Assembly: GCF_000348945.1 (NCBI RefSeq) | Contig: NZ_AOCK01000008.1 | Coordinates: 124,001 to 188,000, forward strand | Length of the DNA stretch: 64,000 nt | Source: Paeniglutamicibacter gangotriensis Lz1y | Lineage (GTDB): Bacteria; Actinomycetota; Actinomycetes; Actinomycetales; Micrococcaceae | Reading direction: 5' to 3' | Shown here: positions 22,355 through 34,823 of the stretch, one piece after another | Numbering within the stretch: position 1 is the first letter of the stretch | How the letters are laid out: each line of letters starts with the position of its first letter | Translations under genes and position numbers: made by a program | The notes under the pieces: model-generated | Told to the model about the DNA's origin: nothing | The model's database searches: none | What the model saw: only the letters and a program-made list of their open reading frames with translations

Positions 22355-22741
22355 AATCGGGTTGACCGCGAGCGGCACGACGCCGTCGAAGGCCATGGGG
22401 CCGCTGCGGCGCTTTTTCACGGGCTTGCGGACCCCACACGGCTGATGATCCTGGCGCACCTGCGCACCGGGGAACACAAGGTCAAGGATCTCACCGAACA
22501 CCTGGGGCTGGCCCAAAGCACCGTCAGCGCCCACCTGTCCTGTCTGCGGGACTGCGGACTGGTGACCTCCCGCGCGCAGGGGCGCGCCAGCATGTATTCG
22601 TTGGCAAACCCTCGATTGTTGCTCGCCCTGCTCGGGGATGCAAACCACTACATCGGCATCAGCGACGAGCACGAACTGGACACCCACGACTTCACCGAGG
22701 TCCACGGACCGGGTCGCGCGCAGCACGTGGTCCGCCCATGA
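22343..22741 (+). CDS. ArsR/SmtB-family metal sensor, CmtR-like
   Basis: A 132-residue winged-helix repressor. GLADPTRLMILAHL and LGLAQSTVSAHLSCLRDCGLV give the DNA-binding core. Cys67 and Cys71 in LSCLRDCGLV occupy the positions of two of the Cd/Pb ligands of mycobacterial CmtR (Cys57, Cys61). The third CmtR ligand (Cys102) is missing; instead the C-terminal 30 residues carry five His (102, 110, 115, 121, 128) and several acids. It probably represses its own operon until metal binds. The downstream CDF gene starts inside its stop (ATGA). Which metal is sensed is not known. Confidence 0.85.
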   Translation: MTMINRVDRERHDAVEGHGAAAALFHGLADPTRLMILAHLRTGEHKVKDLTEHLGLAQSTVSAHLSCLRDCGLVTSRAQGRASMYSLANPRLLLALLGDANHYIGISDEHELDTHDFTEVHGPGRAQHVVRP

Positions 22742-23652
22742 GCCACGATCACGACCACGGTTCGGCGACGACCAACAGAAAGAAGCTGGCCTGGGCCTTC
22801 GGCATCACCGTTACGATCCTGGTGGCCGAAGTCATTGGTGCGTTCCTCACCAACTCCTTGGCCTTGTTGGTTGATGCGGCGCACATGCTCACCGACTCCA
22901 CCGGCCTGCTGTTGGCGCTCACCGCTGCCACCTTGATCATGCGCAAGCCCACGTCCAAGCGCACCTGGGGATTCCGCCGGGCAGAAGTCCTCTCGGCCAC
23001 CCTGCAGTCCACGCTGTTGCTCGGGGTGGGCATCTATGCGCTCGTCGATGGCATTCGCCGGCTCTTCGAACCGACGGAAATTGCCGGGAGTGGGCTGCTG
23101 ATATTCGGCATCATCGGCCTGCTGGGAAATGTCGCCTCCATGGCCATCCTGGCCTCGGGCAGGGACGACAACCTGAACATGCGCGCAGCGTTCCTCGAGG
23201 TCGTCAACGACGCCCTGGGTTCGGTGGCCGTGATTATCTCGGCCATCGTCATTTCCACCACGGGGTGGATGCGCGCAGACTCACTTGCCGCAATGCTCAT
23301 CGCGATCCTGATCATTCCACGGGCCTTGAAGCTGCTGGGGGAGACCACCCATATCCTGCTGGAGTCCACGCCCAAGGGCCTTGACCTCGAAGAGGTACGC
23401 GCCCACTTGGTCGCGCACCCGCAGGTGCTTGCTATCCACGATCTGCATGCCAGCCAGATCGCCACGAATCTGCCGATCCTCTCCGCGCATGTGGTGGTGG
23501 AGGATGAAGCGTTCCACACCGGGGCAGCGGCCACACTGCTCGGTGAACTGCAGTCCTGCGTGGCCGAGCACTTCGTGGTGAGCATCGAACACTCCACCTT
23601 CCAGATCGAGTCATCCAGCCACCAGGCACCGGAGCACGAAGGGCACGACTGA
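22738..23652 (+). CDS. Cation diffusion facilitator (CDF) metal exporter
   Basis: A 304-residue CDF protein with six transmembrane segments and a C-terminal cytoplasmic metallochaperone-like domain. TM2 holds HMLTD, the His-x3-Asp of zinc/cadmium-type CDFs. The TM5 counterpart reads EVVND, so a Glu replaces the usual His of site A. N-terminal SHDHDHG and C-terminal EHEGHD are His-rich ends. It exports Zn, Cd or a similar divalent ion by proton antiport and is controlled by the overlapping sensor gene. Its last 25 codons are repeated at 34046-34121. Confidence 0.87.
   Translation: MSHDHDHGSATTNRKKLAWAFGITVTILVAEVIGAFLTNSLALLVDAAHMLTDSTGLLLALTAATLIMRKPTSKRTWGFRRAEVLSATLQSTLLLGVGIYALVDGIRRLFEPTEIAGSGLLIFGIIGLLGNVASMAILASGRDDNLNMRAAFLEVVNDALGSVAVIISAIVISTTGWMRADSLAAMLIAILIIPRALKLLGETTHILLESTPKGLDLEEVRAHLVAHPQVLAIHDLHASQIATNLPILSAHVVVEDEAFHTGAAATLLGELQSCVAEHFVVSIEHSTFQIESSSHQAPEHEGHD
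23577..23652. repeat. 76-bp direct repeat, copy 1 (3' end of the CDF gene)
   Basis: This segment, ending exactly at the CDF TGA, recurs at 34046-34121 in the same orientation with 74 of 76 identities. The two changes are third-position and synonymous (CAG/CAA, GCA/GCT). It marks the left boundary of the accessory block and is a candidate attachment site. Confidence 0.8.
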
Positions 23653-23679
23653 CAAGCGTGGTGCCGTAAGCAAATCATG

Positions 23680-23712
23680 CCCGTGGTGCAGTCGAAAGGA
23701 CTGCCCCACGGG
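23680..23712 (+). terminator. Terminator of the metal sensor/CDF operon
   Basis: CCCGTGGTGCAGTC (23680-23693) pairs with GACTGCCCCACGGG (23699-23712) with one mismatch and a 5-nt loop, followed by TTTCTTGTCTT. A good Rho-independent terminator 28 bp after the CDF stop. Confidence 0.75.
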
Positions 23713-23719
23713 TTTCTTG

Positions 23720-24127
23720 TCTTGTGGCGGAAGTTGCTCCAGCAAACCCGCGTTTGAAGCGGCTTGGAGTGCGAGTATCGTCCAGGTTGCGGAGCTATCT
23801 CAGTCTTTTGATGACGCTTTTGTGCCATGGATAACATTTGAAAACGAATGTAATGTTCCTTCAATCCAGCCTACCTCCGGTGTGCTCGACAGGCACTTTG
23901 GTGCGAGTTTGGTGAAAACGTTCGATTTTCAGGAGAATTTCGCGCACAAAGTCGGGTTTTCCGATGGTCGCGTAGTTCAATGCTGGCGCCGACAAGAGTA
24001 CGTTCGTAAACCCTTGTCTTATAAATCATTCACTGTTACAGTTTTTCGAGAGCGCACGTGACGAGCATCACGAGGTCCTGTGGCTCTGATCTCTCGATCC
24101 CTCACCGCAACCCAGCAAGGAGTCGTC
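23720..24127. other. ~400-bp non-coding, AT-richer left margin of the accessory block
   Basis: Between the CDF terminator and the permease start no supported gene is seen. A 114-codon open frame at 23717-24061 has no SD, unusual Cys/Ser-rich composition and no family resemblance. The segment is richer in A and T than its flanks. It probably holds the promoter of the permease operon; no clear operator was identified. Confidence 0.5.
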
Positions 24128-25645
24128 GTGTTCGTAGAGTCACGTGAAGCACCCGAGGCCAAGACCCAAGATCTTGATGAGGATGCGGCGCATCTGGCGT
24201 CGCTCGGTTACAAGTATGAAGCTCAGTTCAAGCGTGAAATGACGTTCTGGGGAAACGTCTCGCTGGGATTCACCTATCTCTCGCCCGTCGTAGGGATTTA
24301 TTCCCTGTTCGCAATTGCCTTGGGCACCGCCGGGCCACCGATGATCTGGTCATTGGTCATTGTTGGCGCCGGACAGCTCTTTGTCGCAATGATCTTTGGT
24401 GAAGTGGTGTCGAACTATCCTGTTGCAGGAGGCGTCTACCCATGGTCAAGACGACTGTGGGGCCGCAAATGGGGCTGGATGAATGGTTGGGTTTACCTCG
24501 CCGCGCTACTGACCACCATCGCCTCCGTTGCCTACGGCGCAGGCCCGTACCTCGCAGCATTCCTCGGCCTGGAAAGCAGCGTCAACGCAACAATTCTGGC
24601 AGCGCTGGTGATCATCGCTCTAGCAACTTGCCTGAACCTTCTTGGCACCGGAGTACTGAACAAGGTCGCCATGCTCGGCCTGATCGCGGAACTCGGCGGT
24701 GCCATCGTGGTGGGCCTCTGGCTGATCATTGGCCACCGCAACCACGACCTGTCAGTACTCTTCGACTCTTTCGGCGCCGGTGAAGGATCCGACTACTTCG
24801 TGGCATTCGCCGCTGCCGGACTCATCGGAATTTTCCAGTACTACGGATTCGAAGCATGCGGCGACGTTGCCGAGGAAGTCCCCAATCCCGGCAGCACCAT
24901 CCCCAAAGCAATGCGCATGACCATCTACATCGGGGGAGCCGCAGCAATGTTCGTCTGCCTCTCTCTGATCCTCGCAGTCCCCGATTTCGGCGCCGTGATT
25001 TCGGGCGCTGACTCCGACCCGCTCGTTGGCGTACTGATGGCTGCCTTCGGCCCGGTCGGATACAAAGTCGTCCTCGGAGTCGTCCTGATTTCATTTGTCT
25101 CCTGCGTCTTGAGCCTGCAGGCCGCCGCAAGCCGCCTGACCTATTCAATGGCCCGCGACGGTATTCTGCCGTTCAGCGGATTGCTCGCACGATTCAGTCA
25201 GAAACGCCACGTACCGCCGTATGCGCTGCTGATCGCCGGCATATTTCCCGCGCTCGTTGTAATCGGTTCCAAGATTTCTGAAGACGCGCTGGTCGCCATC
25301 ATCTCCTTCGCCGCTATGGGCATGTACCTGGGCTTCCAGATGGTCGTATTAGCATCCCTGCGTGCCCGGCTCAAGGGCTGGAAGCCAGCCGGCAAGTACC
25401 AACTCGGACGCTGGGGCATTCCCGTGAACGTGATGGCCATGCTCTGGGGCGTACTGGGCATGATCAATATGGCCTGGCCGCGCACACCGGAAGCCGGCTG
25501 GTTCGCCAACTACATCGTCTTGATTTCCTCGATCGTCGTGCTGGGCATCGGTCTTTTGTATCTGGTCCTTCGCAAGCCACATCTCAAGGGCGATGCCCCG
25601 GCCGCGGACGCCATCAAGGGACAGCCATCCACCACCGGCAATTAG
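24128..25645 (+). CDS. APC-family amino acid/amine permease of the accessory block
   Basis: A 505-residue permease with ~12 hydrophobic segments. A ~40-residue acidic N-terminus precedes FWGNVSLGFTYLSPVVGIYS, the TM1 region of the AAT/GABA-permease-like APC branch. YYGFEACGDVAEEVPNPGST is the characteristic TM6 loop. Start GTG 24128 follows AAGGAG at 5 nt; upstream in-frame codons back to 24080 lack an SD. It leads a plus-strand run of eight genes ending at 32162, with modest gaps before and after the P450 gene. It probably imports the amine that the P450/synthetase genes process; the substrate is not established. Confidence 0.85.
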   Translation: MFVESREAPEAKTQDLDEDAAHLASLGYKYEAQFKREMTFWGNVSLGFTYLSPVVGIYSLFAIALGTAGPPMIWSLVIVGAGQLFVAMIFGEVVSNYPVAGGVYPWSRRLWGRKWGWMNGWVYLAALLTTIASVAYGAGPYLAAFLGLESSVNATILAALVIIALATCLNLLGTGVLNKVAMLGLIAELGGAIVVGLWLIIGHRNHDLSVLFDSFGAGEGSDYFVAFAAAGLIGIFQYYGFEACGDVAEEVPNPGSTIPKAMRMTIYIGGAAAMFVCLSLILAVPDFGAVISGADSDPLVGVLMAAFGPVGYKVVLGVVLISFVSCVLSLQAAASRLTYSMARDGILPFSGLLARFSQKRHVPPYALLIAGIFPALVVIGSKISEDALVAIISFAAMGMYLGFQMVVLASLRARLKGWKPAGKYQLGRWGIPVNVMAMLWGVLGMINMAWPRTPEAGWFANYIVLISSIVVLGIGLLYLVLRKPHLKGDAPAADAIKGQPSTTGN

Positions 25646-25720
25646 AACTTCGCATCAATTGAAAACGGCCAGCCGGACCGATCGGTCAAGGCCAACAACA
25701 CAAAACGAGAGGATCGCATC

Positions 25721-26932
25721 ATGAGTGTCGACATCGTCCCGAACCAGTTTGCCGTACCCTACCTGGACATTTCCGATCCGAGCTTCGCCATGCAATCGGA
25801 GGAGCTGCGCAACGCTCGAGAAGCCAGCTGGTACGCAAGAACCAATTACGGCATCGCCGTGCTGCGCTATGAAGAAGTGAGCAAACTGCTGAAGAGCCCC
25901 AAGCTCATCCAAGGCAGCGCCAAGTGGCCGGCACACAACGGCGTGCATGGCGGGTTGTTTTTCGACTGGTGGACCAAGAACCTGCTCGTGTTGGAGGGCG
26001 AGGACCACCACCGGATCCGGCGGCTGCTCAACCCGGCATTCTCCCCACGACTAATCAAGGACCTCGTCCCGCGTTTCCAAGAGCTGGCAAACGAACTGAT
26101 CGACGACTTTATCGAAAAGGGAGAATGCGAATTCATCGGCGACTTTGCCGAGCCGTACGCCACTCGCGTGCTGACCATCCTGTTGGGCATCGACGAAAGC
26201 GAATGGCCCACCATCGCCCGGTTGGCCTCCACCATCGGACTGGCCCTGGGTGTCACCTTCAAGCAGGACCTGGACAAAGTCGACGCGGCAGTGGCCGAGC
26301 TCTACGCCTACGCGGAGGACCTTATCAAGGACCGCCAAGCGAACCCGGGCGAGGACTTCGTCTCTCGACTGGTGCTGGCGAGCAGGGACGGCGACAAGCT
26401 CAACGACGAGGAGCTCCGCAATGCACTGGTACTGCTGATCTTCGGCGGCATGGACACCACCCGCAACCAGCTGGGCCTAGCCATGCAGTCGTTCATGCGC
26501 AACCCGGATCAGTGGGAACTGCTGGCAGAACGCCCCGAGCTCGGACCTAAGGCCGTCGAAGAGGTCATGCGCACCAACCCGACCGTCACATGGGTGACCC
26601 GCGAGGCCGTCGAGGACTTCACCTACCAGGGACTCGAGATCGCCGCGGGCACCACTGTGCACCTGTTCACCCAGGCCTCCGGCACCGACCCGCTCGCGTT
26701 CCCCAACCCCGAACTGGATCTGTTGGGAGAGCACCCGGTCCATTACGGGTTTGGTGGCGGAGTCCACCACTGCCTGGGCCACTTCGTGGCCCGCGCCGAC
26801 ATGAGCGAGGCCCTGCCGCTTCTGGCCAACCGCCTTGCAAATCCACACCTGACTGGCGGGGACGAATGGCTCCCCGACTCGGGCAACACCGGCCCCATCC
26901 GGTTGCCCATTGGATTCACCCAACGCGGCTAA
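25721..26932 (+). CDS. Cytochrome P450
   Basis: A 403-residue soluble bacterial P450. The I helix reads LLIFGGMDTTRNQLG, with the acid-Thr pair for oxygen activation. The ExxR is in EEVMRTNP, and the heme loop is FGGGVHHCLG with Cys351. Its redox partners follow directly: a [3Fe-4S] ferredoxin and a ferredoxin reductase. This P450-ferredoxin order next to a glutamine-synthetase-like gene resembles the mycobacterial piperidine/morpholine (CYP151) loci. CYP151 membership is my inference from context. It would hydroxylate a carbon beside nitrogen to open or dealkylate an amine. GAGAGGA precedes the ATG. Confidence 0.93.
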   Translation: MSVDIVPNQFAVPYLDISDPSFAMQSEELRNAREASWYARTNYGIAVLRYEEVSKLLKSPKLIQGSAKWPAHNGVHGGLFFDWWTKNLLVLEGEDHHRIRRLLNPAFSPRLIKDLVPRFQELANELIDDFIEKGECEFIGDFAEPYATRVLTILLGIDESEWPTIARLASTIGLALGVTFKQDLDKVDAAVAELYAYAEDLIKDRQANPGEDFVSRLVLASRDGDKLNDEELRNALVLLIFGGMDTTRNQLGLAMQSFMRNPDQWELLAERPELGPKAVEEVMRTNPTVTWVTREAVEDFTYQGLEIAAGTTVHLFTQASGTDPLAFPNPELDLLGEHPVHYGFGGGVHHCLGHFVARADMSEALPLLANRLANPHLTGGDEWLPDSGNTGPIRLPIGFTQRG

Positions 26933-26984
26933 GCCCCGCCCAACGCCTTACGTCACCACCAGCACCACAGAAACGAGTACTTCC

Positions 26985-27176
26985 ATGGCACAGATCACCG
27001 TCGACCGCACGCTTTGCGACAACCATGGCCAATGCGCCATTGCGGCTCCAAAGGTCTTTTCGATGAACGATGAGGGGATCCTTGAATACGCGGAAACTTT
27101 CGACGACGCGCTGCTAGACGAGGTCGAGGAAGCCATCGATGTATGCCCGGTCCAAGCCATATTCCTGAAGGACTAG
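26985..27176 (+). CDS. [3Fe-4S]-type ferredoxin
   Basis: A 63-residue ferredoxin with Cys11, Cys17 and Cys54-Pro. The position normally held by the second Cys of a [4Fe-4S] cluster is His14 (C-D-N-H-G-Q-C), the pattern of P450-associated [3Fe-4S] actinobacterial ferredoxins. It carries electrons from the reductase to the P450. ATG 26985 gives the standard length; the frame is open upstream into the P450 gene but without family similarity. It lies 52 bp after the P450 and 2 bp before the reductase. Confidence 0.9.
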   Translation: MAQITVDRTLCDNHGQCAIAAPKVFSMNDEGILEYAETFDDALLDEVEEAIDVCPVQAIFLKD

Positions 27177-27178
27177 CC

Positions 27179-28408
27179 GTGGTCCAGCGGATCATCGTCG
27201 CAGGCGCCTCGCTCGGAGGACTGCGCGCAGCGGAACAGTTGCGGGTAGCCGGCTGGACAGGAGAAATTCTGGTGATTGGCGAGGAAGAGCACCCGCCTTA
27301 CAACCGGCCACCGCTATCCAAGGACGTCCTGGCGGCCCCCGGCACCCCGGAGGAAGCCCTGGCCAAACTGGCCTTCCGTCCTCGGCGCAGCGCCACCGGA
27401 ATCCAGTGGCGGTTGGGAACCCGGATCACCGCGTCCAACCTCGCGGCACGCACCATCACCCTTGATGGCGGGGAGGTTCTCGGCTTTGACGGATTGGTCA
27501 TTGCGACAGGCCTGCGTCCTGCACGGGTGGCGGCACCTGGCCCGCAGGCCGGGCGCCACTTGCTGCGCAGCATCGACGATGCGTTGGCCCTGCACGAAGC
27601 ACTGCGGCCGGGAACCCGGGTGGGCGTCATCGGCTCGGGGTTCATCGGATGCGAAAGTGCAGCCACCGCAGCATTGCTGGGATGCTCGGTGACGCTGGTG
27701 GAAGGGCGTACGGGCCCCATGGAACGCCCGCTGGGCCGTGCGCTCTCCGCCGGAGTACGGGACATGCTCACGCAACGCGGTGTGGACTGCCGACAAGCAG
27801 TGTCCGTGGTCGCCTACCGGGGCGCCGAATCCTGCACCGGTGTGGAGCTTTCCGACGGCGGTGTGATCGACGTCGATGTCGTCGTCGAAGCCGTCGGCTC
27901 CCGTGCCAACGTCGAATGGTTGCAGGGCAACGGACTTGACCTTGTCGACGGAGTGGAATGCGACAGCCACTTACGGGTCCTAGGAGAAGACGGGCAACCG
28001 GTTCCCGGCCTCGTCGCGGTCGGAGACATTGCGAGGTACCCGGACGATCGCAACGGGCTCCCCGCCCGGCGCGTGGAACATTGGGCGACCCCCACCGACA
28101 CCGCCAAGATCGCTGCCCCCGCATTGGTCGCCGGGCTCGTCGGGCGGCCTCCTGCAGAGGCCACCGCTCCGCTCCCGTCATTCTGGACCGACATCTTCGG
28201 GACCCGGATCAACGGCGTCGGTTCACCTGCCTCAGCCGAGGAAACCCGGATTCTGGAAGGCGACCCGGGCCGGCTCCACGCAGGAGTGGCAGTGGGCTAC
28301 TACCGCGGCGACACCCTCATCGGCGTCGTCGATGCTGGCCTTCCGGCATCGAAGCATCTCCATTACCGCCAGCTGGTGCTCGACGCCGGCGCGCTTGTCA
28401 CCATCTAA
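27179..28408 (+). CDS. FAD-dependent ferredoxin reductase (rubredoxin/putidaredoxin reductase type)
   Basis: A 409-residue NAD(P)H-ferredoxin oxidoreductase. IIVAGASLGGLRAAEQLR is the FAD Rossmann loop, YNRPPLSKDVL is the family block, GVIGSGFIGCESAATAA binds NAD(P)H, and VAVGDIARYPD is the second FAD motif. A C-terminal reductase domain ends the protein. Start GTG 27179 follows AAGGA at 7 nt, 2 bp after the ferredoxin stop. It supplies electrons to the ferredoxin and P450. Confidence 0.9.
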   Translation: MVQRIIVAGASLGGLRAAEQLRVAGWTGEILVIGEEEHPPYNRPPLSKDVLAAPGTPEEALAKLAFRPRRSATGIQWRLGTRITASNLAARTITLDGGEVLGFDGLVIATGLRPARVAAPGPQAGRHLLRSIDDALALHEALRPGTRVGVIGSGFIGCESAATAALLGCSVTLVEGRTGPMERPLGRALSAGVRDMLTQRGVDCRQAVSVVAYRGAESCTGVELSDGGVIDVDVVVEAVGSRANVEWLQGNGLDLVDGVECDSHLRVLGEDGQPVPGLVAVGDIARYPDDRNGLPARRVEHWATPTDTAKIAAPALVAGLVGRPPAEATAPLPSFWTDIFGTRINGVGSPASAEETRILEGDPGRLHAGVAVGYYRGDTLIGVVDAGLPASKHLHYRQLVLDAGALVTI

Positions 28409-28436
28409 GACTTCCAACAGAAAAGAGTTGAGTTCC

Positions 28437-29852
28437 ATGACCTTGCAAGCAATCCGCACCGAAACTAACGCCATGATGGACCGCGAAGCCTTCTTCCGTC
28501 ACCAGGCCAGCAACCTCGAGCCTCAGGTCGTCAAGGACCTAGCGGCGAAGATCGAGGCTGCCGGAGTCGAGTACATCTACTACGCGCTGCCAACCATCGG
28601 CTCGCGAGTCGTGGCCAAGATGGTTCCCGCCAACCACTTTCGCCGCAACCTGGAAAAGGGCATCTGCTTCCACCGCACGGCGCTCTCCGACCTGCAGAAC
28701 GACCGCCATGGAAACCTGATCGGCGGAGGCATAGAGGCCCGCGAGTTCTGGGCCCTCCCGGAGCCGGACTCCTTCGTTGTCCTGCCTTGGGACACCTCGG
28801 TGGCCCGGATCTTCTGCACCGCCTACGAGCCCCCGCACCTGCCGGATGTCGGCGGCCGCCCGCTGGCCATCGACACGCGCTCTCTGCTGGCCCGCACTCA
28901 CGCCGCGTTCACCGAACGTACCGGGTTCGAAGTGCGCTCAGGCACCGAGCCCGAAATGACATGGGAAGGACCCGGTCTCGAGGTCGTCAAGCGTCCCGGC
29001 TCCAGCCCTGCCTACCAGGTGGAGAACCTCGAGCGCATGCGCCCGATCTACAAGAAGCTCGTCACCTACTCCAAGGCCATGGGCCTGGACATGATCGAGG
29101 GCGACTACGAAGACGACGGTCAGCTCGAACTGAACTGGATGTACGACCGTGTGGAAAACACCGCCGACCGGTTGGTTACCTACCGACAGATTTGCAAGCA
29201 GGTCGCTCGCGAGTTCGGGGTCACGGCCTCGTTCATGCCCAAGCCCTACAACGGCCAGATGGGCAACGGCTGCCACCACAACCTCAGCCTCTGGGACGGG
29301 GACACCAACGTCATCGAGGACGCCGATCGCGTGGAACTACACGTCTCGGAAACCGCTAGGCACGCCATTGGCGGCATGCTAGCCCACGCCCAAGGATCCA
29401 TGGCCGTGATGGCCTCGACAGTGAACTCATACAAGCGCTTTTGGGACGCGGGTCAGTTCGCGCCTTCAACCGCCAACTGGGGCCTTGACTCGCGCGGCTG
29501 CCTGATTCGAATCTCCGCCAACGGGCGGATGGAATACCGGGTGCCTGACGCCGCGGTAAATCCCTACTTGTCCCACACTCTGCTCATCGCCTCAATGGAG
29601 GACGGAATCAACCGGAAGCTCGAGCCCGGCGCACCTGACGAGGGGTGCGATAGCGCACCCGCACTCGGGGCGCAACTTCCGCTGACCCTCGGCGACGCCA
29701 TCGGGGCGTTCGTCTCGGACACCTACCTGACCTCGCAGCTTCCCGCGGACCTGGTGTCCATCTACACCAAGCTCAAGGAAGAGGAGTGGGCCCGCTACTG
29801 TGGCTCAATCACCGAATGGGACCGCGAAATGTACTGGGAGACGATGCCGTAA
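28437..29852 (+). CDS. Glutamine synthetase-like gamma-glutamylamide synthetase
   Basis: 471 residues of the glutamine synthetase superfamily. SGTEPEMTWEG and EGDYEDDGQLELNW are metal/ATP-site blocks, FMPKPYNGQMGNGCHHNLS corresponds to the FMPKP...GxGxHxH block, NSYKRFWDAGQFAPSTANWG is the ATP-binding segment, and MEYRVPDAAVNPYLSH holds the glutamate-binding Arg. No adenylylation Tyr segment is evident. Members of this branch (PuuA, IpuC) join glutamate to an amine rather than to ammonia. The neighbours (P450, two Puu-type hydrolases, permease) support amine gamma-glutamylation. ATG 28437; its TAA overlaps the next ATG. Confidence 0.87.
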   Translation: MTLQAIRTETNAMMDREAFFRHQASNLEPQVVKDLAAKIEAAGVEYIYYALPTIGSRVVAKMVPANHFRRNLEKGICFHRTALSDLQNDRHGNLIGGGIEAREFWALPEPDSFVVLPWDTSVARIFCTAYEPPHLPDVGGRPLAIDTRSLLARTHAAFTERTGFEVRSGTEPEMTWEGPGLEVVKRPGSSPAYQVENLERMRPIYKKLVTYSKAMGLDMIEGDYEDDGQLELNWMYDRVENTADRLVTYRQICKQVAREFGVTASFMPKPYNGQMGNGCHHNLSLWDGDTNVIEDADRVELHVSETARHAIGGMLAHAQGSMAVMASTVNSYKRFWDAGQFAPSTANWGLDSRGCLIRISANGRMEYRVPDAAVNPYLSHTLLIASMEDGINRKLEPGAPDEGCDSAPALGAQLPLTLGDAIGAFVSDTYLTSQLPADLVSIYTKLKEEEWARYCGSITEWDREMYWETMP

Positions 29853-30574
29853 TGACAACGCTGAAGCTGGCCTGCATCGATGCCGATGCGCCACCGCTCT
29901 TCTCGCTGCTTGACGACGATGGCCAACGCACCGGCTTCGAACCGGCCGCCGCTGAGCTTGTGGCAGCACGCATGGGCCGCACGATCGAATGGGTCGTCAT
30001 GGGTTGGGACGAGATGCTGCCCGCAGTGCGAGACCGCCGGGTGGATGCTGTCTGGTGCGGTCAAGGCATCATTCCCGAGCGCCAAAAGATTGTGGATTTC
30101 ACCCGCCCGTATGCAGTCTTCGACGAAACGGTCCTGGTCCGCAAGGGGGATCCTGCACGCACCCCGGCCGACATGGTCGGATACCGGGTAGCCGCCATCG
30201 AGGGCAGCGCCAATATGGCCCTGGCCCGAACTTTCGACGGTGCGGTCATCGTCCCTTTCAAAGGGGACACTGTCTACGAAGACATGCTCGCGGCCGTCGC
30301 AGACTCGAGCGTTGACGCCATGGTCGACGACGACGTGGTGCTGGTGCCTCTGGGAGCGGACCCGCGCTATGACTTGGCCTTCACCGTGGCCACGCGCAAC
30401 CCATGGGGGATCGGGGTTGCCAAGGACAATCCGAACCTGCGCGAGGAATTCAACGCTGCGCTGGGGGACGTGATCGCTGACGGCAGCCTGCGCGAGGTCT
30501 GGACTACGTGGATGCCCGGGCTTACCTTCCCGATGGATCACAGGGCAAAGGCAGCCCTAGGCATGCTGGCATGA
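29852..30574 (+). CDS. SBP type 3-fold protein without signal peptide
   Basis: A 240-residue protein with the amino-acid-binding SBP_bac_3 fold. LACIDADAPPLFSLLDDDG starts the first lobe, and AVWCGQGIIPERQKIVDFTRPY is the hallmark block. VGYRVAAIEGSANMALA and the hinge follow. It begins directly at the first strand: there is no signal peptide, lipobox or Tat motif, and no cognate ABC permease is nearby. It is coupled to the synthetase by TAATG and to the next gene by ATGA. A cytoplasmic amine sensor/carrier, or an enzyme like cyclohexadienyl dehydratase, are both possible; I cannot choose. Confidence 0.78.
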   Translation: MTTLKLACIDADAPPLFSLLDDDGQRTGFEPAAAELVAARMGRTIEWVVMGWDEMLPAVRDRRVDAVWCGQGIIPERQKIVDFTRPYAVFDETVLVRKGDPARTPADMVGYRVAAIEGSANMALARTFDGAVIVPFKGDTVYEDMLAAVADSSVDAMVDDDVVLVPLGADPRYDLAFTVATRNPWGIGVAKDNPNLREEFNAALGDVIADGSLREVWTTWMPGLTFPMDHRAKAALGMLA

Positions 30575-31341
30575 GTAGCGGGGCAACGGAGGGCCGACGC
30601 CCGTTGATCGGTGTCCCTGGCATGTGGTCGGGAAAGGTCCAGGGGATGCGCTTTGCCGGGACCGCCGTTGCCGTGGAAGTCCTGCGGTCGATCGACAGGG
30701 CAGGAGGAGAGCCCGTAGCCCTGTTCCCGGGGAGCCATGGATCGGGGGTCGAACAGGTTTCGCGGCTTGACGGTGTGGTCATTCCCGGCGGTGCCGACAT
30801 CGATCCACGCCGCTATGGAAGCGAACCCGACGAGCACTACTGGCCGGCAGACTTTGCGGGGCAGGACGATTACGAGGCAGGGATCCTTCGGGCCTGCCTG
30901 GATACGGGAACCCCGACATTGGCGATTTGCCGGGGCTTGCAACTGCTCAACGTTGTTCACGGTGGAACGTTGGTGGGGCATCTGGCATCCGGCACGGTCG
31001 AACACCGCGGTGCCGAACATCCTGTGGTCTGTGAACCGGGCACGCTCCTTGCCTCGGTGTTAGGGGTTACCCCCGTGAATACATCCTCGTACCATCATCA
31101 AGCAGTGGACTTGGTCGGTGAAGGGCTGAAGGTTTCCGCAATGGCCTCTGATGGGGTCATCGAGGGACTCGAGGTTGAGGGTGCCCCCCTGCTGGCCGTC
31201 CAATGGCATCCCGAGGATCTGGCAGCGACCTCATCGACCGACCATGCACTGTTCGCCTGGGTGGTCGAAGCATCCCGGACCCGCAGGAACGAAGTCTTCG
31301 CAACCGATCGAACGAAAACATTGGAGGCCGTAAACCCATGA
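30571..31341 (+). CDS. Class I amidotransferase-fold gamma-glutamyl hydrolase (PuuD-like), copy 1
   Basis: A 256-residue peptidase C26/PuuD-like protein. The nucleophile elbow is LAICRGLQLLN with Cys120, and the partners are His213 and Glu215 in QWHPED. PGGADIDPRRYG is the family oxyanion region. PuuD cleaves the gamma-glutamyl amide of gamma-Glu-GABA; here it would remove glutamate after the amine has been oxidised. Translationally coupled on both sides (ATGA overlaps). Confidence 0.87.
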   Translation: MSSGATEGRRPLIGVPGMWSGKVQGMRFAGTAVAVEVLRSIDRAGGEPVALFPGSHGSGVEQVSRLDGVVIPGGADIDPRRYGSEPDEHYWPADFAGQDDYEAGILRACLDTGTPTLAICRGLQLLNVVHGGTLVGHLASGTVEHRGAEHPVVCEPGTLLASVLGVTPVNTSSYHHQAVDLVGEGLKVSAMASDGVIEGLEVEGAPLLAVQWHPEDLAATSSTDHALFAWVVEASRTRRNEVFATDRTKTLEAVNP

Positions 31342-32162
31342 ACACGGAGATACCCGGAGACTTGATGCTGGGACTGGAAGAGATCATCCCGGAGGGTTTT
31401 GAGTCGCTTTCCCCCGAAGCACCATTGGTTGCGGTGGTGGTCTCGCTGACGTTCCCCGGCATGACCGGCGAAAGTTACGAGATCATGCGTGACTTCACAC
31501 GCAGTGCCTTCGACCAACTCCTGGAAAACGGTGCGAGGGCCATCTTGATCGACAGCTCAGCGGCAAGCCCGCACTCGGCCATTGCTGCTGGGGAAGCCGA
31601 TGCCGTGCTCTTCCTCGGCGGTGGGGACGTGGACGGGGCACTGTACGGGCTCCGGGGTCCCATCCCCAAGGCCTACGGCGTGGATCGCAAAGCCGATGAG
31701 TTCTGCATCGACATGATCCATCGAACCCTTGGGAAGGACCAACCGCTGCTTGCAATATGCCGGGGATCCCAACTTTTCAATGTTGCGCTCGGGGGAACCC
31801 TGGTGCCGGACATCGTTCCATCGGCCCTGCACCAAGGGCAGGCTGGGCAGCCGATGTTCCTCGACGAATCGGTGACTCTGGCCGGAGGCAGCAAGATCAG
31901 GGCCATCTTGGGAAGTGAACGGGTCACCGTACGCTCAGGACACCATCAGGCCGTGGACAAAGTGGCTCCGGGGCTTGTAGTCAGCGCAGTGGCTGATGAC
32001 GGGATCATCGAAGGCGTCGAACATCCGGGGTACACCTGGGCTGTAGCGGTGCAATGGCATCCGGAAGACCGCGATGGATCCGACGAGGACCGTCGGGCTA
32101 TCTTCGGTGCCCTCGTTGCGCAAGCCGTTCTTCGGCGCCGGCAGCTGGCCCGGCACATGTAG
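31338..32162 (+). CDS. Class I amidotransferase-fold gamma-glutamyl hydrolase (PuuD-like), copy 2
   Basis: A 274-residue paralog of the preceding gene, with Cys141 in LAICRGSQLFN and His241/Glu243 in QWHPED. It differs by a ~25-residue N-terminal extension and by FLGGGDVDGALYG at the oxyanion region, where copy 1 has PGGADIDPRRYG. The two are clearly diverged, so different substrates or a heteromeric enzyme are possible. It is the last gene of the plus-strand run, ended by the hairpin at 32175-32209. Confidence 0.85.
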   Translation: MNTEIPGDLMLGLEEIIPEGFESLSPEAPLVAVVVSLTFPGMTGESYEIMRDFTRSAFDQLLENGARAILIDSSAASPHSAIAAGEADAVLFLGGGDVDGALYGLRGPIPKAYGVDRKADEFCIDMIHRTLGKDQPLLAICRGSQLFNVALGGTLVPDIVPSALHQGQAGQPMFLDESVTLAGGSKIRAILGSERVTVRSGHHQAVDKVAPGLVVSAVADDGIIEGVEHPGYTWAVAVQWHPEDRDGSDEDRRAIFGALVAQAVLRRRQLARHM

Positions 32163-32174
32163 ACCGCTTCCTTC

Positions 32175-32209
32175 GGATGGCTGGTCGATGAACAATCGAC
32201 CAGCCATCC
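32175..32209. terminator. Bidirectional terminator of the amine cluster
   Basis: GGATGGCTGGTCGAT (32175-32189) pairs perfectly with ATCGACCAGCCATCC (32195-32209) around GAACA. It lies 12 bp after the second hydrolase and 2 bp before the end of the convergent Cache gene, serving both. Confidence 0.8.
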
Positions 32210-32211
32210 CA

Positions 32212-32916
32212 CTACGCCGGGACCAACATGGAGAAGCCCAGGTGCGTTACGTCCATGGGAACTATGTCGCTTCCGTCGGGAACGATTTTGATTCTCTCTC
32301 CAACAAGGTACGCGCCCGAATTGCCGATGATGACCCGGTTGCTGGCGTTCAATAGCGCCGCGTCCCCGGGAATCGAACGCATCATCGGCAGAAAAATATC
32401 CTCCAGGACCCGCACCGTGACGTCGTAGCCCGCCACACCCGCAAATTCTCCGTGGATATAGAACGGAGCTGTGTGGGTGAGGATGTATTCGTCCGAACCC
32501 AGGTAATCGACATACGGACCCCAAATAGTCTCCTCGCCGGTTCGTTCAGCGGTGGTGAAAAAGGGAAGCCGTTCGTAGTCGTAGAACCGTTCGCCGTCCG
32601 GGTCAAGGTCAAACTGCAACTTCTCGGCTCCCTGTGACCCCGGCGACCACCATTCGAGCAGGCCGTGGCCTTCACCGATGCGTGCAGAGGCGAATGTTGC
32701 TCCGGAACCCACTGTGAACGGGTGATCCTTTAGGAACTCGCAGGCAAGGAGCTTTAAACGGGCGAGATCGTTTTTTCCAACGGGTGCACCGGCAGCCTGA
32801 CCGAGCGTGAAAAGATCGCTGACCGCGGAAGCCAACGCATAGGTGTCCGCCGATGCATCATTGAACCATTTCGCGATGGACCTCAAGGCCACAACTGCCG
32901 GTTGGGAGGGGCTCAT
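32212..32916 (-). CDS. Free-standing Cache (PDC-like) sensor-domain protein
   Basis: 234 residues forming little more than one Cache/PDC sensory domain. FYDYERLPFFTTAERTGEE, WGPYVDYLGSDEYILTHTAP, FAGVAGYDVTVRVLEDIFL and ALLNASNRVIIGNSG are the typical strands. The Asp of GYDV sits where dCache domains bind the ligand amino group. Cache domains normally face outward on membrane receptors, but this protein has no transmembrane segment or signal peptide. It overlaps the FadR-type regulator by 4 bp and is therefore likely to work with it, perhaps sensing the amine inside the cell. That role is inference. Confidence 0.78.
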   Translation of the reverse strand: MSPSQPAVVALRSIAKWFNDASADTYALASAVSDLFTLGQAAGAPVGKNDLARLKLLACEFLKDHPFTVGSGATFASARIGEGHGLLEWWSPGSQGAEKLQFDLDPDGERFYDYERLPFFTTAERTGEETIWGPYVDYLGSDEYILTHTAPFYIHGEFAGVAGYDVTVRVLEDIFLPMMRSIPGDAALLNASNRVIIGNSGAYLVGERIKIVPDGSDIVPMDVTHLGFSMLVPA

Positions 32917-33674
32917 ACGGTCTCCTTTGTTTCGGTCGAGTAGCTAAGTGCCAGCTTCGTGTCGATGAGATGGTGCGTATTGCGCCGGATATGCTCAATC
33001 ACCAGTTGTTGACCTTGCTGGCTACGGTTCTCTGCGATAGCCCGCACCAAGGCAAGATGTTCCGCGGTGGCCCGTTCTGAGTCAAAGTTGCCCGCCAACG
33101 GCGACCACAAGACTTCAACCGTTTCGGCCTGCAAACGAATCTCTGCGTTGGCCAACCGAGTCGATTGCGCTGTCACCGCCAGTTCTATATGAAAGCGGCT
33201 GTCGGCACGAGCCTTCGACTGCGCGTCGGCTGCCAGCACCAATGCGCGAGCCATGTCCTGCAACCTTTCCAATTCATGAGACTCGGCCCGGTCGCACGCC
33301 AACCGAACAGTGGCAGCGGCAACGGCTGACTGTTCGTCGCCCAGATCCCTGATCTCGGCAATCGACGTGGACATCAGCCAAGCCCGCATGGCTTCCAGCT
33401 GGAATTGTGGTTGTTTCAGGATGAACGTTCCACCATTGCGACCACGTCTCGTTTCCACGATCCCGTGCTCGCGCAAGACGGCTAGGGCATCTCGAAGAGT
33501 CGCAACGGCAACCCCGAACATCTCGGACATCTCGAGTTCGTTGGGCAGGCGTTCTCCGACGCGCAACATGCCGAGTGTAATCGCCTTGGAGATGCGATTG
33601 ACAATGGCGTCGGAGCGCTCCAGCTCGGGCAAGGAGCGATAGATCTGCGACTGGAAGGACATGTTCAAAGCCAA
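32913..33674 (-). CDS. FadR/GntR-family transcriptional regulator
   Basis: 253 residues. An N-terminal GntR winged helix (IVNRISKAITLGMLRVGERL, then LREHGIVETRRGRNGGTFI) is followed by an all-helical FCD domain with His/Asp metal or ligand residues (RFHIELAV, HLALVRAI). FadR-type regulators repress catabolic operons until an acid or amine effector binds. Start: TTG 33674 follows GGAG at 8 nt; ATG 33662 lacks an SD and would lose four residues. It is co-transcribed with the Cache gene and lies at the right end of the accessory block, convergent to the genes it probably controls. Confidence 0.85.
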   Translation of the reverse strand: MALNMSFQSQIYRSLPELERSDAIVNRISKAITLGMLRVGERLPNELEMSEMFGVAVATLRDALAVLREHGIVETRRGRNGGTFILKQPQFQLEAMRAWLMSTSIAEIRDLGDEQSAVAAATVRLACDRAESHELERLQDMARALVLAADAQSKARADSRFHIELAVTAQSTRLANAEIRLQAETVEVLWSPLAGNFDSERATAEHLALVRAIAENRSQQGQQLVIEHIRRNTHHLIDTKLALSYSTETKETV

Positions 33675-34244
33675 ACCGGATACTCCAAGCCAAACATTCG
33701 GGAATTCTGCTCAGTCTACCGGCAAAATTGGGCTTGACATTGGGGAACGAGCGCATATTGAGTAGCCCGTGGGGCCACGCTCCGTTACCGGCGGTTCAAG
33801 ATGGTTGGAAAATCGTACGCAGCGTTGAGGCACTACCATCCGTTGCATTGCCCGGAGACTGTGGGTCTGCCGCATCGTATTTCAACGTGAATCGGTGGGG
33901 GACGACTACGGTATCTTGGGTACCGGCTCCGCCTATCCGAGGCCCCGTGGCCGGCCAGCGACGGACCAAATCTTCGTGTTTCGGTAGGCTACCTGAAAAG
34001 CCGAGGCCCGTACCCAAAATATTCGTCTCGCGTCAATAGCGGAGAGGTGAGCATCGAACACTCCACCTTCCAGATCGAGTCATCCAGCCACCAAGCTCCG
34101 GAGCACGAAGGGCACGACTGAATACCCGGTGGTTCTTCGGTATATGGCGTGGTCGATGACCCCGCAAGCAGGGCGCAGCTGCGGCTCTTCGTCGGGGTCT
34201 TGGCCCAGCAGGTGAAGAACCCGGTGGACATGGACCGCGTCGTG
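33675..34244. other. 570-bp intergenic scar at the right end of the accessory block
   Basis: No intact gene is present. The segment contains the promoter side of the FadR-type gene, about 300 bp without recognisable content, and the 76-bp copy of the CDF 3' end at 34046-34121. Sequence on either side of that copy does not resemble the CDF gene or its terminator, so only the tail was duplicated or left behind. Confidence 0.6.
34046..34121. repeat. 76-bp direct repeat, copy 2 (remnant of the CDF gene 3' end)
   Basis: 74 of 76 bases match 23577-23652, in the same orientation and ending at the same TGA. It would encode the last 24 CDF residues unchanged (SIEHSTFQIESSS... EHEGHD). There is no CDF coding sequence before it. 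Candidate attR/attL partner of copy 1. Confidence 0.8.
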
Positions 34245-34823
34245 CTACCGCTGGAGCAATGCTGCGGGGGCGACGGCGATGGCCGGGGTGCGCCGGCTTC
34301 TGGCCACGGACAACAGTGCCCACCCGGCCACGGCCGCAAGGAATCCGCCGGTGGTGTTGGTGATGATGTCGGTGATATCGGAAGCCCGATTATTGCGTAG
34401 CAGCAGCTGGGTCGTTTCGACGCACAGGGAGATCCCCAGCACCAAGGCGGTTGATTTGAGTACCGAGTAGCGACGCCAAGCAAAAGCCAACATCAACGTC
34501 AACGGGGCAAAAAGTCCGAGGTTGGCCAGCATCTCCACGCCCAGGGCGCGTTCACGGTGCGCCATGAACGGAATCCAGTTGAAGGTGCCCGAGGGGATCG
34601 AAGGATCCGGCTGCGGGGCAGAGGGTAGAACCGCAACGGCCAGCCCCAGCGCCCACACCGGGATAACCACCGCCAAGATCCGCCGGATGGCACGGTGATG
34701 GCCCTTCGAATCGAAGTACAGCAACAGCGCCAGCACGGCGCAGCTGGCGGCAAGACCCATGATGATGAGCAGCGTAACGGTGGGAACGGCAAAATAAAGC
34801 ATGATGTAGGCGATCGTATCCAC
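34245..34823 (-). CDS. VanZ-like membrane protein
   Basis: 192 residues with four to five hydrophobic segments. FNWIPFMAHRERALGVEMLANLGLFAPL and ISLCVETTQLLLRNNRASDITDIITN (given as the family pattern: NLGLF...P, then E-x-x-Q...R-x-x-D-x-x-D-x-x-x-N) identify the VanZ family. VanZ proteins raise teicoplanin resistance in enterococci; most homologs have no known role. It is divergent from the ABC exporter across a gap with a perfect inverted repeat. Confidence 0.82.
   Translation of the reverse strand: MDTIAYIMLYFAVPTVTLLIIMGLAASCAVLALLLYFDSKGHHRAIRRILAVVIPVWALGLAVAVLPSAPQPDPSIPSGTFNWIPFMAHRERALGVEMLANLGLFAPLTLMLAFAWRRYSVLKSTALVLGISLCVETTQLLLRNNRASDITDIITNTTGGFLAAVAGWALLSVARSRRTPAIAVAPAALLQR

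Follow-up and report, generated by a model that had tools for sequence, protein, structure and literature searches.

The window, the whole 64,000-nt stretch of DNA from the soil-type bacterium Paeniglutamicibacter gangotriensis Lz1y analysed here, carries a block of catabolic genes between a cation diffusion facilitator (CDF) gene and a VanZ-like gene (Table 1). Pfam profiles identified in the block a cluster of P450/glutamyl type and a GntR/FCD regulator belonging to it, in agreement with the preliminary description of a P450/gamma-glutamyl cluster that has its own regulator. An NCBIfam cut-off was reached by none of the nine block proteins scanned, the Cache-like protein lying outside that scan. 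The top PDB match of the glutamine-synthetase (GS)-like ligase is glutamate--methylamine ligase, and the ligase (Gln-synt_C) occurs together with two C26 proteins, as for a gamma-glutamylation amine pathway. According to excerpts of PMC11335346, amine catabolism by gamma-glutamylation uses GS-like ligases of the IpuA/PuuA/NpaA1 type. The present cluster has in common with the scheme in those excerpts a GS-like ligase accompanied by an oxygenase, to which it adds C26 hydrolase-family proteins; it differs in having a P450/ferredoxin oxygenase and leaderless SBP-like and Cache-like proteins. No strongly hydrophobic leader was found in the SBP_bac_3-like protein, whose gene probably has its true start near 29850, and no strongly hydrophobic segment was found in the Cache/PDC-like protein.

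Table 1. Features from the CDF gene to the VanZ-like gene, in window coordinates
Feature	Position	Strand	Basis or remark
CDF gene, left anchor	22738..23652	+	304 aa; Pfam Cation_efflux 3.7e-36
Left 76-bp copy (CDF 3′ end)	23577..23652	+	Repeat search
Intergenic DNA; hairpin/T-run after CDF (by eye)	23653..24079		No strand
APC-family amino acid/amine permease	24080..25645	+	Pfam AA_permease_2 6.1e-47
Cytochrome P450	25721..26932	+	Pfam p450 7.6e-25; PDB relatives
Small ferredoxin-like protein	26985..27176	+	Cys pattern by eye; no NCBIfam match
Ferredoxin reductase	27143..28408	+	Pfam Pyr_redox_2 1e-51
GS-like ligase	28434..29852	+	Pfam Gln-synt_C 4.3e-71; start chosen within longer frame
Solute-binding-protein-like (SBP_bac_3)	29786..30574	+	Pfam
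Peptidase C26 (gamma-glutamyl hydrolase-like)	30508..31341	+	Pfam 3.6e-48
Second peptidase C26	31332..32162	+	Pfam 1.3e-41; start chosen within longer frame
Stand-alone Cache/PDC-like domain protein	32212..32916	-	Pfam MCP-like_PDC_1 1.2e-6
GntR/FCD regulator	32913..33674	-	Pfam FCD 3e-11, GntR 3.4e-11
Region upstream of GntR	33675..33762		Homology with carrier G004 ends here
Orphan 283 bp	33763..34045		Family-genome search
Right 76-bp copy	34046..34121	+	Repeat search; putatively the recipient's own CDF tail
97 bp	34122..34218		Aligned to none of 14 relatives
Match to end of small post-CDF ORF of G009	34219..34262	+	DNA alignment
VanZ-like gene, start of conserved right flank	34245..34823	-	NCBIfam vanZ-A 5.6e-12, below cut-off

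The CDF 3′ end is repeated on both sides of the block

A repeat search of the window found the 76-nt end of the CDF gene a second time, in direct orientation and at a spacing of 10,469 (97%). As had been reported, the right copy stops at the same TGA as the CDF gene and differs from the left at two positions (74/76 identical), 49 (G/A) and 52 (A/T). With the codons read from the frame, CAG in the left copy becomes CAA in the right and GCA becomes GCT, both synonymous; a random pair of changes would be synonymous at both positions with P = 0.04, and the pattern weakly favours a pair of alleles over a dead copy that has drifted. The description of the flanks as unrelated also held, the 20 bases on either side of the left copy being dissimilar to those of the right. 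A chance match of the copies is excluded by the E values, about 1e-32 when the two flanks were compared with each other and 9.4e-34 and 4.8e-31 for the only two matches to the CDF tail in a whole-genome search, in which no third copy appeared. Within the 76 bp the best inverted repeat was 4 + 4 bp, equalled or bettered in 263 of 300 shuffled sequences.

To the right of the CDF stop, the DNA from 23653 to about 23756 aligns with carrier G004 and with none of the non-carriers. At the other end, only two among 294 other genomes of the family matched the 283-bp orphan, both from other genera and over no more than 33 and 42 bp, and the 97-bp stretch with its 47-aa frame gave one weak match (37%, E 0.008). 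From 34219 the window aligns with G009 at 72% over 108 bp, running into the VanZ side; at the protein level the small ORF of G009 had no match in the window.

Filled and empty alleles in the genus

We compared the locus in 14 Paeniglutamicibacter relatives. In seven of them the CDF gene leads straight into the VanZ side, which is the empty site that the preliminary description had predicted; an eighth non-carrier has neither the cluster nor the VanZ side. The cluster stands at the same place and in the same orientation in the other six, and in none of these was a second CDF tail found to the right of it. The P450 gene was present in 7 of 15 genus genomes, our own included, and always beside CDF. 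Two carrier/empty pairs, G004/G009 and G014/G010, have their left boundary at the CDF stop and differ in their right breakpoints; the right ends of the cluster vary among carriers and adjoin unrelated DNA. A small ORF follows CDF in three of the eight non-carriers and was not found in the other five. Two carriers, G006 and G004, retain remnants of this ORF on the right side of the cluster, without its 5′ part (11 residues in G004).

Divergence and age of the repeat

Fourfold-site divergence from G004 was 0.275 in the cluster (462/1682) versus 0.38 in the flanks (412/1085; chi-square p 8e-9), a contrast that is only relative since rpoB (0.255) and gyrB (0.190) are no more diverged than the cluster. 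This comparison suggests that the cluster may have moved between lineages. In the core-gene tree (rpoB absent for G011), the window grouped with G004, G005, G007 and G009 with a support of 0.97. The branch separating those four from the window stood at 0.21 in that tree and, in the trees of the left flank, of CDF and of the right flank, at 0.966 to 1.0. In the right-flank tree the window forms a pair with carrier G003 (0.847), and the cluster tree comes close to the same pairing; the right flank could therefore have moved as well.

The age of the repeat was estimated from its two differences, taking the right copy as unconstrained. Against 2 changes in 76 positions, 15.6 would be expected had the copies diverged since the cluster split from that of its nearest relative (P 2e-5), and the slowest clock tried, that of gyrB, still predicts 10.0 (P 0.003). 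The tails are thus more alike than if they had formed at that split, and the most plausible reading of the repeat is a scar of recent date left by ordinary recombination rather than the mark of a dedicated mobile element.

Origin of the repeat

The best reading of these data supports insertion and does not support site-specific integration. Insertion beside the CDF stop, as first proposed, stands on the seven empty sites. We consider it probable, with some reserve, that the insertion was recent, was anchored by homology in CDF and ended illegitimately on the right, leaving the CDF tail of the recipient in place. The cluster would be an old resident of the CDF–VanZ interval in Paeniglutamicibacter, carried by some species and absent from others. 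Recently a close relative outside our sample would have donated a segment comprising a CDF tail and the cluster to an allele that lacked the cluster. The segment would have joined on the left by homology, within the CDF gene or upstream of it, and on the right either illegitimately or through a single crossing-over of a circularised fragment. Because the right join would have fallen 76 bp ahead of the recipient's own CDF stop, the left tail would be that of the incoming allele and the right tail a leftover of the recipient, followed by the recipient's right flank. The right copy is most plausibly the former CDF end of the recipient, since G006 and G004 still have remnants of the small ORF on the right side of the cluster. 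We infer the direction of the event, its donor and a recA-type mechanism; a ComEC-family match is present in the genome, and DNA uptake is therefore conceivable. Several observations count against the insertion reading: the CDF tails of the sampled relatives agree with the left copy at no more than 68 of 76 positions (range 54-68), no identity step marking a crossover was seen within CDF, the right-flank tree gives the pairing with G003, the 283 bp and 97 bp beside the right copy are without a source match, the small ORF lacks a protein match in the window as in five of eight non-carriers, and about 10 kb is large beside the average of about 1 kb in the excerpts of PMC3240628, where such events are also far rarer than homologous recombination.

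A duplicated gene 3′ end with a core of 74/76 at both ends, synonymous differences and empty sites at the same place would also be expected from site-specific integration of a non-autonomous island, with its recombinase supplied in trans or since lost. Our search covered two recombinase families, tyrosine (PF00589) and serine (PF00239). The genome has 19 PF00589 and 7 PF00239 matches that could act in trans, all away from the window's contig (C8), which has none; the earlier remark that the block lacks an integrase agrees with this. Across the 15 genomes, no match to either family was listed closer than 50 kb to CDF, within the reach of the contigs. This, the variable right ends and the failure to find the repeat at the site in any of the six other carriers speak against the integration part of the original proposal, which we now regard as quite unlikely. 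Two results on the tail count against it as well: with the settings used, searches of viral and phage collections did not find the tail, and its best inverted repeat is no better than those of shuffled sequence. That the CDF 3′ end is an attachment site, the island having been moved in trans by a recombinase encoded elsewhere in the genome and the other carriers having lost the right copy, is slightly less probable again. Alternatively, the cluster may already have been resident and the right flank rearranged later, by import of a piece running from CDF tail to VanZ from an empty allele or by placement of a local copy of the CDF tail on the right. The resulting structure would look identical, and fourfold divergence of the cluster from G003, G006, G013 and G014 (0.44-0.48) is about that of the flanks (0.39-0.51), as for an old resident. 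A local copy, however, would have to stop exactly at the stop codon by coincidence, and import from an empty allele is the mirror image of insertion and the same class of event; we hold such later rearrangement to be unlikely, though worth serious consideration. The alternative offered in the preliminary description, a paralogous CDF gene deleted to its tail, appears very improbable. CDF genes with similar tails are found on Arthrobacter-group plasmids (84-94% over 33-49 bp), so paralogues do circulate, but a CDF DNA search gave a single match in each of the 14 relatives, none of which showed the second CDF gene that the preliminary description had named as an outcome contrary to its proposal, and 74/76 is far above both the plasmid tails and those of the relatives. 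An assembly artefact at the repeat might be suspected in a draft genome of 20 contigs, but the longest exact stretch common to both copies, 48 bp from the mismatch positions, is short relative to usual read lengths, and we give this explanation hardly any weight.

Comparison with known recombination events

Homology-facilitated illegitimate recombination is described, in the excerpts of PMC3240628, for Streptococcus pneumoniae, Acinetobacter baylyi and Pseudomonas stutzeri and as rare in Escherichia coli, with inserts averaging about 1 kb, similar deletions and a frequency 100 to a million times below that of homologous recombination. As far as those excerpts go, the present locus has in common with it a non-homologous end, variable far breakpoints and no dedicated recombinase, and would also share one homologous anchor, the left boundary being at the CDF stop in the two carrier/empty pairs; the insert here is, unlike the published ones, about 10 kb. 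A microhomology of 3-10 bp at the join and dependence on RecA would be expected of this kind of recombination. The excerpts of PMC3240628 also report 14 sequenced clones in which circularised DNA had entered by single crossing-over and had left 109-950 bp of the anchor duplicated. Part of the anchor gene is likewise duplicated here (76 bp), in a natural gene cluster as opposed to a laboratory plasmid conjugation. Excerpts of PMC5361080 propose displacement arrays with orphan 3′ genes for the T6SS immunity genes of Vibrio cholerae. There, as is proposed here, the incoming module is anchored on its conserved side and the old 3′ part lies downstream; unlike the arrays in those excerpts, our case concerns a catabolic cluster and a transporter gene tail and has a single remnant.

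The event is best read as ordinary in kind, with a clean scar. A gene 3′ end directly repeated around a block of genes is not proof of an integrase. With the relatives for comparison, the locus shows alleles with the cluster and alleles without it, right breakpoints that vary, and a single scar that appears young. It offers a natural case in which catabolic clusters may be swapped at a constant position in the chromosome with no dedicated mobile element involved, and an example of how such a recombination scar can be dated.

Cluster and CDF tail outside the genus

Other genera have the cluster as well, at different sites and without the CDF-tail repeat, an outcome that the preliminary description had itself named as contrary to its proposal. 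At one such locus (L135 in G021) the cluster has a CDF gene at a distance of about 1.5 kb; the cluster is inverted and has no repeat, and we took the proximity as coincidence. Carriage of the block on plasmids was rejected: megablast, in near mode only, returned four records with a coverage of at most 8%. In the search for a source of the 283-bp orphan, the plasmid matches to the query 33755-34245 fell on its CDF-tail part. In G191 (L141), the cluster stands between the two copies of a 41-bp direct repeat (93%).

Repeat of the CDF gene tail

The preliminary description had claimed that the last 76 bp of the cation diffusion facilitator (CDF) gene recur to the right of the catabolic gene cluster with two synonymous differences, and this is confirmed. 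A repeat search of the window gave two direct copies, 74/76 identical at a spacing of 10,469, with mismatches at positions 49 and 52, each synonymous in the CDF frame. These two places gave the only matches to the 76-bp sequence in a search of the full 4.32-Mb genome of 20 contigs.

Coordinates of features in the window and of related features elsewhere
Feature	Sequence	Coordinates	Strand
CDF gene (304 aa)	window	22738-23652	+
Left 76-bp copy	window	23577-23652	
SBP_bac_3-like protein	window	29786-30574	
Cache-like protein	window	32212-32916	
283 bp beside right copy	window	33763-34045	
Right 76-bp copy	window	34046-34121	
97 bp beside right copy	window	34122-34218	
VanZ-like gene	window	34245-34823	-
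Tyrosine recombinase triplet	C14	47375-49849	
Tyrosine recombinase triplet	C10	5691-8150	
Tyrosine recombinase triplet	C2	505429-507796	
CDF protein, Glutamicibacter ardleyensis	L079	2328-3239	

Among the genomes compared, the repeat around the cluster is particular to the window genome. A CDF-tail search of the right part of the locus gave chance-level matches only (best E 0.009) in the six other carriers, and a right-junction query across the genus found the tail at a single place in each of 13 relatives (in G002, a 36-bp match only, plus a 22-bp chance-level match); G008 gave no tail match at the threshold used. Flanks of up to 3 kb were also compared at 27 cluster loci (7 in the genus, 20 elsewhere), several with rough bounds or short flanks, and a repeat of such size was seen between the flanks in the window only. 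The cluster does occur elsewhere without it, an outcome which the preliminary description had held to count against its proposal: none of the 20 loci outside the genus has a comparable repeat. One other of the 27 loci, L141 (genome G191), has a 41-bp direct repeat (93%), one copy on each side of the cluster.

Probable insertion beside the CDF gene

The CDF gene is present in all 15 genus genomes, the window's own included, with one copy in each of the 14 relatives. Comparison of the regions around it from all 14 placed the cluster between CDF and VanZ in six (G003, G004, G006, G012, G013 and G014; G012 and G013 are near-identical at the locus and count nearly as one). In seven (G001, G005, G007, G008, G009, G010 and G011) CDF meets the VanZ side directly, the empty site envisaged in the preliminary description. 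The eighth non-carrier is G002, where the VanZ side is unaligned. The P450 has matches (E 1e-60 or better) in 27 of 295 family genomes; within the genus they occur in 7/15 genomes and always adjoin CDF. At the 20 loci beyond the genus, all ten genes stand in identical order in 13, the remaining seven being partial or cut by contig ends; the CDF-VanZ setting was found at none of the 20, and at one a CDF gene lies ~1.5 kb from the cluster.

At the relatives' CDF loci (L015-L028) the CDF stop codon is TAG in five of the six other carriers and TGA in G004 and 7/8 non-carriers, as in the window; it is TAA in G008. The CDF protein of L079, from a different genus, is 89% identical to that of the window.

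In trees, the carrier G004 groups with the empty G005, G007 and G009, and the carrier G014 pairs with the empty G010. For both carrier/empty pairs the left divergence point is the CDF stop, and the right breakpoints are unlike. An intact 139-aa ORF directly follows CDF in G009; it is shortened or broken in G005 and G007 and has no match in the other five non-carriers. In G006 (E 6e-13) and G004 (11 residues only), what remains of this small ORF sits on the right side of the cluster. The ORF has no protein-level match in the window, but from 34219 the window DNA aligns to its end as present in G007 and G009, and the alignment extends across the start of the VanZ side (108 bp at 72%, E 2e-12). 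These findings suit an original order of CDF, small ORF and VanZ in the group to which G004 belongs, with the cluster then inserted after CDF. At L016 and L017, ~4.3 kb of extra DNA lies between FtsX-like and ogt-like genes in G009 and G005 relative to the window and G007.

Tests for site-specific integration

Insertion of the cluster beside CDF is supported by the empty sites and the CDF-stop boundary, while its site-specific integration, also proposed at the outset, is not supported by the tests made. The window genome has 19 PF00589 and 7 PF00239 recombinase matches in total, none on the window's contig, C8. Among the matches listed for the other 14 genomes, the closest on a CDF contig is ~75 kb off (G012), within a partial coverage where contigs end <50 kb away on some sides (the G009 and G011 contigs are ~40 kb; G008 and G012 are affected on one side). 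No viral contig contained the tail, searched as an exact degenerate pattern, a phage collection gave no match to it, and the cluster block was not found on the searched plasmids by megablast. Elsewhere in the window genome, tyrosine recombinases stand side by side in three triplets, with similar ones in several relatives; the triplets resemble recombinase-in-trio elements.

Probable exchange of the cluster and estimated age of the repeat

Cluster and flank divergence at fourfold sites was compared between the window and five carriers, G012 being left out. Against G004 the cluster differs at 0.275 (462/1682) and the flanks at 0.38 (412/1085; p 8e-9), while the two are similar against all four others (cluster/flanks 0.445/0.427 for G006, 0.436/0.392 for G013, 0.478/0.465 for G003 and 0.470/0.506 for G014). 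The values for rpoB and gyrB against G004 are 0.255 and 0.190; since these genes are also low (only 0.23-0.28) against G003, G006 and G013, they are not on the same scale as the cluster and flanks. In cluster trees the window joins G004 and next G003, in conflict with the core tree, and in the right-flank tree it pairs with G003 (support 0.847). These divergences and conflicting trees make the cluster look like an old occupant of the CDF-VanZ locus that has been exchanged, and recombination may have involved the right flank as well.

The repeat itself appears younger. If fourfold sites serve as a clock and the right copy is taken to be free of constraint, 15.6 changes between the tails are expected at the cluster rate since the split from G004, and 2 are observed (P 2e-5); other clocks give 24.2 (flank rate), 14.2 (rpoB) and 10.0 (gyrB, P 0.003). 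At the cluster rate, its age comes to less than ~40% of that of the window/G004 cluster split (one-sided 95% bound).

Two routes could have left such a repeat, and PMC3240628 describes events of either type. DNA from a carrier relative would recombine homologously in or upstream of CDF at the left end, with an illegitimate join on the right at a point 76 bp short of the stop of the recipient's CDF; or a circularised fragment bearing the 76 bp would enter by single crossing-over. For the latter, the duplications given in that paper are 109-950 bp, compared with 76 bp here. A similar model is put forward in PMC5361080 for Vibrio immunity-gene arrays. DNA uptake is conceivable in the window genome, which has a ComEC-family match, although such a match proves nothing. 

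Several points count against this reading of the mechanism. The comparisons all involve relatives of other species; no sampled relative's tail comes nearer than 68/76 to the left copy, so the donor would be an unsampled one; and the insert is larger than the average of published cases, which PMC3240628 describes as rare. A search for the source of the 283 bp and 97 bp beside the right copy found none, and no identity step marking a crossover was seen inside CDF. The mirror image, in which an empty right side was imported into a carrier, is also a conceivable history. On the supported reading, insertion beside CDF, the repeat is the well-preserved scar of a recombination event at a locus where gene clusters are exchanged, and the event is of an ordinary kind.

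Content of the cluster

One strand encodes a permease, a P450, a small ferredoxin-like protein, a ferredoxin reductase, a GS-like ligase, an SBP-like protein and two C26 hydrolase-family proteins; the opposite strand encodes a Cache-like protein and a GntR/FCD regulator. Among PDB entries, the ligase best matches glutamate--methylamine ligase. By comparison with the glutamylation pathways outlined in PMC11335346, an amine is probably glutamylated, then oxidised by the P450, after which the glutamyl bond would be hydrolysed. The SBP-like and Cache-like proteins appear leaderless. Each is present in 24/27 cluster loci, with a top mean hydropathy over 19 residues of 1.73 for the former (21 measured, 3 readings being cut short) and 1.63 for the latter (24 measured). 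As cytosolic ligand-binding domains inside a catabolic cluster, they may have a role in sensing or catalysis.
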